Assembly (NCBI GenBank): GCA_016789955.1
Contig: JAEUPB010000050.1
Location: 1 to 39,782, forward strand
Source of the DNA: Rubrivivax sp.
Lineage (GTDB): Bacteria; Pseudomonadota; Gammaproteobacteria; Burkholderiales; Burkholderiaceae_C
Direction: 5' to 3'
DNA length: 39,782 nt
The notes under the pieces were generated by a model. It made no database searches and had not been told where the DNA came from. It was given only the letters and a program-made list of their open reading frames with translations. A program made the position numbers and the translations under genes. Shown here in pieces: positions 8,238 through 8,387 of this stretch. How positions within the stretch are numbered: position 1 is the first letter of the stretch; every line of letters starts with the position of its first letter.

Positions 8238-8267
8238 CTGGCAGTCGCACAGCGGCTCTGCTAGAGT
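8238..8267 (+). promoter_or_regulatory. Predicted sigma-70 promoter of the intergenic small RNA
   Basis: CTGGCA (8238-8243, four of six bases of the -35 consensus) is followed by an 18-base spacer and an extended -10, TGC-TAGAGT (8259-8267). The start expected about seven bases downstream of the -10 falls at 8274-8275, exactly where the first stem of the predicted RNA begins. It points away from hemB and toward hemJ. Confidence 0.5.
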
Positions 8268-8274
8268 GTTTCGT

Positions 8275-8387
8275 GAACGTATACCGCAAGGTGTACGTTC
8301 CCTGCTTTTCCTCCCTGAGCAGGCGCCTTACCGTCTGACAGCGATAAGGCTTGCCGGCCCTGGCGTCACGCCAGGGCCTCCTTTTTT
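8275..8387 (+). ncRNA. Predicted structured small RNA (or hemJ leader) between hemB and hemJ
   Basis: About 113 nt with no coding frame. It folds in series without overlaps. Stem 1 (8275-8300) is a perfect 11-bp helix, GAACGTATACC with GGTGTACGTTC (one G-U pair), closed by a GCAA tetraloop. Stem 2 (8301-8323) has arms CCTGCT/AGCAGG and an open pyrimidine loop containing CCTCCC, an anti-Shine-Dalgarno-like sequence. Stem 3 (8325-8350) has arms GCCTTA/TAAGGC with a 14-base loop. A 10-bp terminator stem and T6 finish it. An extended -10 promoter is placed to start transcription at the first base of stem 1. I do not recognise it as 6S, tmRNA, SRP RNA, RNase P or a known riboswitch. An alternative is an attenuating leader of hemJ, which starts 21 bases after the T-run. 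Confidence 0.6.
8356..8387 (+). terminator. Rho-independent terminator of the small RNA
   Basis: Arms GGCCCTGGCG and CGCCAGGGCC form a perfect 10-bp stem with the three-base loop TCA, followed by TCC and six T residues. The orientation is plus. No coding gene lies upstream on this strand within the gap, so the terminator implies a non-coding transcript starting in the intergenic region. Confidence 0.85.

Follow-up and report, generated by a model that had tools for sequence, protein, structure and literature searches.

The small RNA ncS04 of Burkholderia cenocepacia is a 105-nt member of the Rfam family RF02837, with a 3' end confirmed by RACE and a place on a Northern panel, and it co-purifies with Hfq (PMC5688073, PMC4603805). 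Its gene lies between BCAL0264 and BCAL0265 in the gene order <- -> <- (PMC5688073, PMC4603805), and Table 2 in the accessible text of one of these articles gives a significant change of ncS04 in none of seven conditions (PMC5688073). Anti-hemB, the RNA after which RF02837 is named, is also listed in a table for B. pseudomallei (PMC3521395), and a review states that hemB was predicted to be targeted by Bc7, an RNA of B. cenocepacia (PMC6321483); the Rfam name of the family, Burkholderia RNA 7, suggests that Bc7 is an RF02837 RNA. For CU-rich small RNAs, occlusion of the ribosome-binding site (RBS) has been proposed (PMC5688073). No paper naming RF02837 was found in the open-licence literature, and a paper on an antibody against HemB (PMC6515984) is unrelated to the anti-hemB RNA.

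The window analysed here is the whole 39,782-nt contig JAEUPB010000050.1 of Rubrivivax sp. (assembly GCA_016789955.1), to which all coordinates refer. It contains a small regulatory RNA gene at 8275-8387 on the plus strand, between two genes for haem synthesis: hemB (7144-8160, minus strand; PF00490, 453 bits), which is the divergent neighbour upstream, and hemJ (8409-8843, plus strand; PF03653, 146.6 bits), the downstream neighbour, whose ATG stands 22 nt past the T-run of the RNA gene. Three consecutive tRNA genes occupy 207-532 of the minus strand elsewhere in the window.

A sequence-only reading had described this RNA as an orphan belonging to no recognised family, and had itself named a match to a known family as the result that would speak against it. 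An Rfam search of the window returned such a match, as the whole of the RF02837 model (positions 1-81) aligned to 8299-8386 on the plus strand with 54.8 bits, above the curated gathering cut-off of 49.5 (E 3.1e-10). The RNA is thus a member of an already catalogued and widespread family, and the description as an orphan is not supported; the literature, as far as its accessible text goes, already includes a published member that has been probed on Northern blots and co-purified with Hfq. No second RF02837 copy was found in the genome of this Rubrivivax, the assembly of which is 79.6% complete.

Structure and conservation of the RNA

The segment 8275-8387 folds with -59.8 kcal/mol, as compared with -32.8 +/- 3.3 kcal/mol for shuffled sequences (z -8.1; none of 200 as low). 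Two-sided changes were found at 18 of 37 pairs, a level reached in none of 500 shuffles. The covarying stems, a conserved promoter element and the terminator together back the proposal of a stand-alone structured small RNA. Its expected parts, namely the extended -10, a start at 8274-8275, an 11-bp stem with a GCAA loop that begins at that base, and two further stem-loops, are all present.

The samples on which the comparisons rest were selected in different ways. Loci were drawn from matches to the RF02837 model, a choice that favours the core and not the 5' hairpin, and about 100 of the listed matches were examined, with the best scores first and others at the author's choice. Left out were L025 (a duplicate of L024), L076 (the same place as L034), a minus-strand motif inside hemB in L065, and three loci without the hairpin-2 motif, two of which (L087 and L088) carry CCTCCCTGGGC and one of which (L063) has no such loop. 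Alignment A1 consists of 33 rows, the window and 32 relatives, picked for containing CCCTGCTT, and extraction demanded CCCTGAGC; the invariance of hairpin 2 in A1 is therefore by construction. A second set, of at least 118 loci, was gathered with nothing but the 24-base hairpin-2 core as query and is independent of the Rfam selection; it is not independent of the genomes of the first, as at least two contigs, L226 and L207, have the lengths of G292 C135 and G264 C57.

Hairpin 1 (8275-8300, plus strand) is an 11-bp stem, 8275-8285/8290-8300, closed by a GNRA loop (GCAA) at the predicted 5' end of the RNA, and all but its last two bases precede the RF02837 model. Among the 33 sequences that have the window's type of hairpin-2 stem (the window and 32 relatives), two-sided changes occurred at 7 of its 11 pairs, and 91.3% of the alignment cells pair, as against 84.8% in shuffles; none of 500 shuffles reached any of five measures. 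When the partners were shifted by 1-3 columns, pairing fell to 26-57%. Columns 9 and 21, one of the pairs, do not pair in 23 of the 29 rows having letters there. A hairpin ending at this site was found in 92 of 97 distinct loci, comprising 33/33 of the window's type, 32/35 of the other family loci and 27/29 of the wider order, and in 22%, 22% and 12%, respectively, of the shuffled controls. GNRA loops cap it in 31/33 loci of the window's type vs 10/64 of the others. In the second set, a strong hairpin (at least 7 bp, -6 kcal/mol or better, within 28 bases ending at the core) was present in 111 of 118 loci, as compared with 645 of 2360 shuffled sequences, and the loop was GNRA in 92 of the 118. 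Hence the 5' stem of the sequence-only reading, which falls outside the family model, is conserved and, as judged by these alignments, is a real element that RF02837 omits. For the Rubrivivax-type lineage, the Rfam model should begin about 24 nt earlier.

Upstream of hairpin 1 lies an extended -10, TGC-TAGAGT (8259-8267, plus strand; TGC at 8259-8261 and TAGAGT at 8262-8267), from which a start at 8274-8275 is predicted. A consensus promoter scan gave no sigma-70 site in 7900-8700, so that the -35 is weak. Of the 33 same-type sequences, window counted, 31 have the pattern TGnTAnnnT with its end 4-9 nt ahead of hairpin 1; in shuffled upstream stretches the pattern occurs, at any place, in 2.6%. 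The extended -10 is present in 78 of the 118 loci of the second set, and a looser TAnnnT lies upstream in 47 of 64 loci of other types. Since hairpin 1 is conserved and the extended -10 is just upstream of it, a start of the RNA at hairpin 1 is the most likely, in agreement with the sequence-only reading, and the length would be about 112 nt.

Hairpin 2 (8301-8323, plus strand), which was identified by folding, carries at 8308-8316 the C/U-rich anti-Shine-Dalgarno loop UUCCUCCCU. Of 97 distinct loci, 33 have CCTGC..GCAGG as its stem and 63 have CCCGC..GCGGG, an exchange of U-A for C-G, and CCTCCCTGA of the loop is kept in all 97, for which extraction itself demanded CCCTGAGC. Hairpin 3 (8325-8350, plus strand), likewise from the fold, has UGACA in its loop at 8336-8340; of the sequences from the family, 56 of 68 have this motif, as compared with none of the 29 in the wider order sample. 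The intrinsic terminator (8356-8387, plus strand) is formed by a 10-bp stem (8356-8378) with a loop of 3, followed by TCC and by T6 at 8382-8387, and shows two-sided changes at 7 of its 10 pairs. Both the stem and the T6 that had been described are thus there, but they are not adjacent, as TCC intervenes.

The strong structure and the retention of the GNRA-capped 5' hairpin within the clade could also be accounted for by an RNA that binds or titrates a protein instead of pairing with mRNAs. However, the most conserved single-stranded part is the anti-Shine-Dalgarno loop. GGA, the CsrA-type motif, is absent from 8275-8387, and the RNA is therefore not like a CsrA-type sponge. A protein-binding role is regarded as quite unlikely.

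Distribution and genomic context

Of 200 genomes sampled across the order Burkholderiales, 154 have an RF02837 match, with 133 over the cut-off; in the sample from the family, 101 of 120 genomes have one, with 95 over the cut-off. At E 0.001 the model also matched in 3 of 14 control genomes, none of them over the cut-off, and weak matches therefore mean little. A model, R1, of the window's type only (114 positions) gave no match in 21 genomes, consisting of 19 family genomes without an RF02837 match together with G093 and G133; the only two genomes that it matched were already known. Genera among the 80 listed second-set matches include Rubrivivax, Rhizobacter, Roseateles, Pelomonas, Aquabacterium, Leptothrix, Sphaerotilus, Ideonella and Methylibium. 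Tandem RF02837 copies about 180 nt apart are present at L034 in genome G285, which has six matches, and close pairs also occur in G033 and G078.

Within about 1.5 kb of flank, a divergent hemB was found upstream at 82 of 96 loci (33/33 of the window's type, 23/34 of the other family loci and 26/29 of the order), and hemJ downstream at 52 of 96 (29/33, 23/34 and 0/29, respectively). Neither gene lies in the examined flank at 17 of 101 loci. Other neighbours were recognised by eye: an engB-like GTPase frame follows on the other strand at L023 and L021 and precedes at L014, a cytochrome-c-like frame is downstream at L006, and an rlmL-like methyltransferase frame is upstream at L035. CACAATTTT stands directly before the hemB ATG in L053, L054, L056, L060, L061, L066, L067 and others, which suggests a leaderless hemB mRNA in these loci.

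In the window hemJ lies on the same strand, with 22 nt between the T-run and its ATG, and hemJ follows the RNA at 52 of 67 family loci; from this position, the conserved structure might be read as a cis-acting leader or attenuator of hemJ and not as a separate RNA. This is very improbable, as none of the 29 order loci has hemJ in the flank. Moreover, a start was placed in 36 of the 53 hemJ loci, and 29 of these 36 have a -10-like box at 4-9 nt upstream of it, compared with 0.89 of 36 in shuffles. In the window, the candidate -10 of hemJ itself is GATAAT (8397-8402, plus strand), 6 nt before the ATG, and the hemJ mRNA is therefore probably leaderless; most likely hemJ is transcribed from a promoter of its own, with the start at its ATG. 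The assignment as a hemJ 5' leader was rejected on the basis of hemJ being downstream at only 52 of the 96 loci and of its own -10-like box.

The prevalence of a divergent hemB would fit a dedicated hemB regulator, the loop of which masks the hemB RBS, as would the name of the family and the prediction of hemB for Bc7 in the review (PMC6321483). In the window, the hemB leader contains GAGGAA, for which UUCCUC in the loop is a possible pairing partner; the duplex energy is -12.8 kcal/mol vs -10.2 kcal/mol when shuffled. Over 78 loci with hemB starts placed by rule, however, the mean for the duplex between the loop and the hemB start was -9.4 kcal/mol, little better than the -8.9 kcal/mol for shuffled sequences. 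Furthermore, many hemB genes of the family have CACAAT directly before the ATG and, as judged by eye, may be leaderless, and the examined flank is without hemB at 11 of the 34 other family loci and at 3 of the 29 from the order. That the RNA is dedicated to regulating hemB is accordingly considered unlikely, and hemB as a general target across relatives is not supported. The name anti-hemB should not be taken to indicate a demonstrated target. For hemJ, the mean of the corresponding duplex at 43 loci, with starts again placed by rule, was -10.9 vs -10.7 kcal/mol for shuffled sequences.

Proposed function and targets

The interpretation preferred here is that of an independently transcribed RF02837 RNA of about 112 nt, extending from hairpin 1 to the terminator, that probably acts in trans by Hfq-aided masking of RBSs, with hairpin 1 shielding the 5' end. 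Transcription would start at hairpin 1 and stop at the intrinsic terminator, the U-tail of which is the likely dock for Hfq. The co-purification with Hfq is reportedly from Ramos 2013. Hairpin 2 would present the C/U-rich loop UUCCUCCCU, which is highly conserved and is a complement of Shine-Dalgarno sequences; with Hfq this loop would pair in trans with the RBSs of several mRNAs, the translation of which would decrease. Hairpin 1, in which even the first nucleotide is paired, would most likely protect the 5' end from decay. Masking of RBSs in trans is to be expected from the complementarity of the loop to the Shine-Dalgarno sequence, the hfq gene in the same genome (100.5 bits), the U-run of the terminator, the co-purification of a family member with Hfq, and the parallel with S17S described below. 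Family membership, structure, conservation and the promoter and terminator signals were established here by sequence analysis; repression by RBS masking, the mRNAs concerned and what hairpin 1 does are inferred.

Potential targets were sought by the complement of the loop. Allowing up to 2 mismatches, the 15-base complement was found in the own genome, besides the RNA itself, at one place only, inside a coding frame, and a reversed control pattern also gave one place. A search for CAGGGAGG-ATG sites gave 14 in the own genome; in a set of 17 genomes it gave 43 places, spread over 14 of them, and 30 of the 43 places were examined. No conserved target was found among the 28 frames of at least 60 aa behind CAGGGAGG-ATG in the 14 own-genome loci and these 30 of 43 places; the similar frames were one pair that is the same place twice and three pairs of ABC-type proteins that are 31-35% alike. 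No verified target of the RF02837 family was found in the accessible text of the open-licence literature.

A tentative extension, which we consider rather doubtful, is that the Rubrivivax/Leptothrix/Roseateles lineage has remodelled the anti-hemB RNA, with a long GNRA-capped 5' domain for docking or protection and UGACA, found in most of the wider family, as a second pairing site, and that its target set would consequently be unlike that of Burkholderia.

Comparison with known systems

An apparent orphan has been placed in a widespread family of small RNAs; the practical gain is modest. The additions to the known family, a 5' hairpin absent from the Rfam model and a motif in the loop of hairpin 3, are small.

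Among the RNAs compared, that of Bordetella pertussis named S17/S17S is the nearest parallel with a well-studied mechanism and is alike by description, being Hfq-dependent, with C/U-rich single-stranded anti-RBS sites and an intrinsic terminator, but S17S is a 67-nt form cut from a 190-nt RNA and is located between a glycosyltransferase gene and coq7 (PMC11722255). In the accessible text, one gene is under direct repression by S17S; of the 92 genes with increased levels in the absence of S17, 70 contain complementary sites at the RBS or close to it (PMC11722255). The double-hairpin RNAs ncS03, ncS05, ncS27 and ncS62, with which the toxic small RNA family RF02278 is grouped here, share CU-rich unpaired stretches complementary to the RBS (PMC5688073). 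RNAs of the RF02278 type differ in being double hairpins of 57-92 nt, and RF02278 had no match in the window at the gathering cut-off, nor in 8200-8420 at E up to 10. The RF00519 suhB (mmgR) model resembles the RNA in having UUUcCUCCCU before a terminator; membership in that family was rejected, as the score was 16.7 bits vs a cut-off of 41.

The closest known system is RF02837 and its member ncS04, with which the RNA of the window shares a hemB neighbour, the anti-Shine-Dalgarno loop of hairpin 2, hairpin 3 and the terminator, the whole 81-position model being matched. It differs in the stem of hairpin 2, which is CCTGC..GCAGG in the window and CCCGC..GCGGG in the model, and adds UGACA in the hairpin-3 loop, hemJ downstream, and hairpin 1 upstream of the model. 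As the 105 nt of ncS04 exceed the 81 positions of the model and leave room for it, ncS04 may include hairpin 1 as well.
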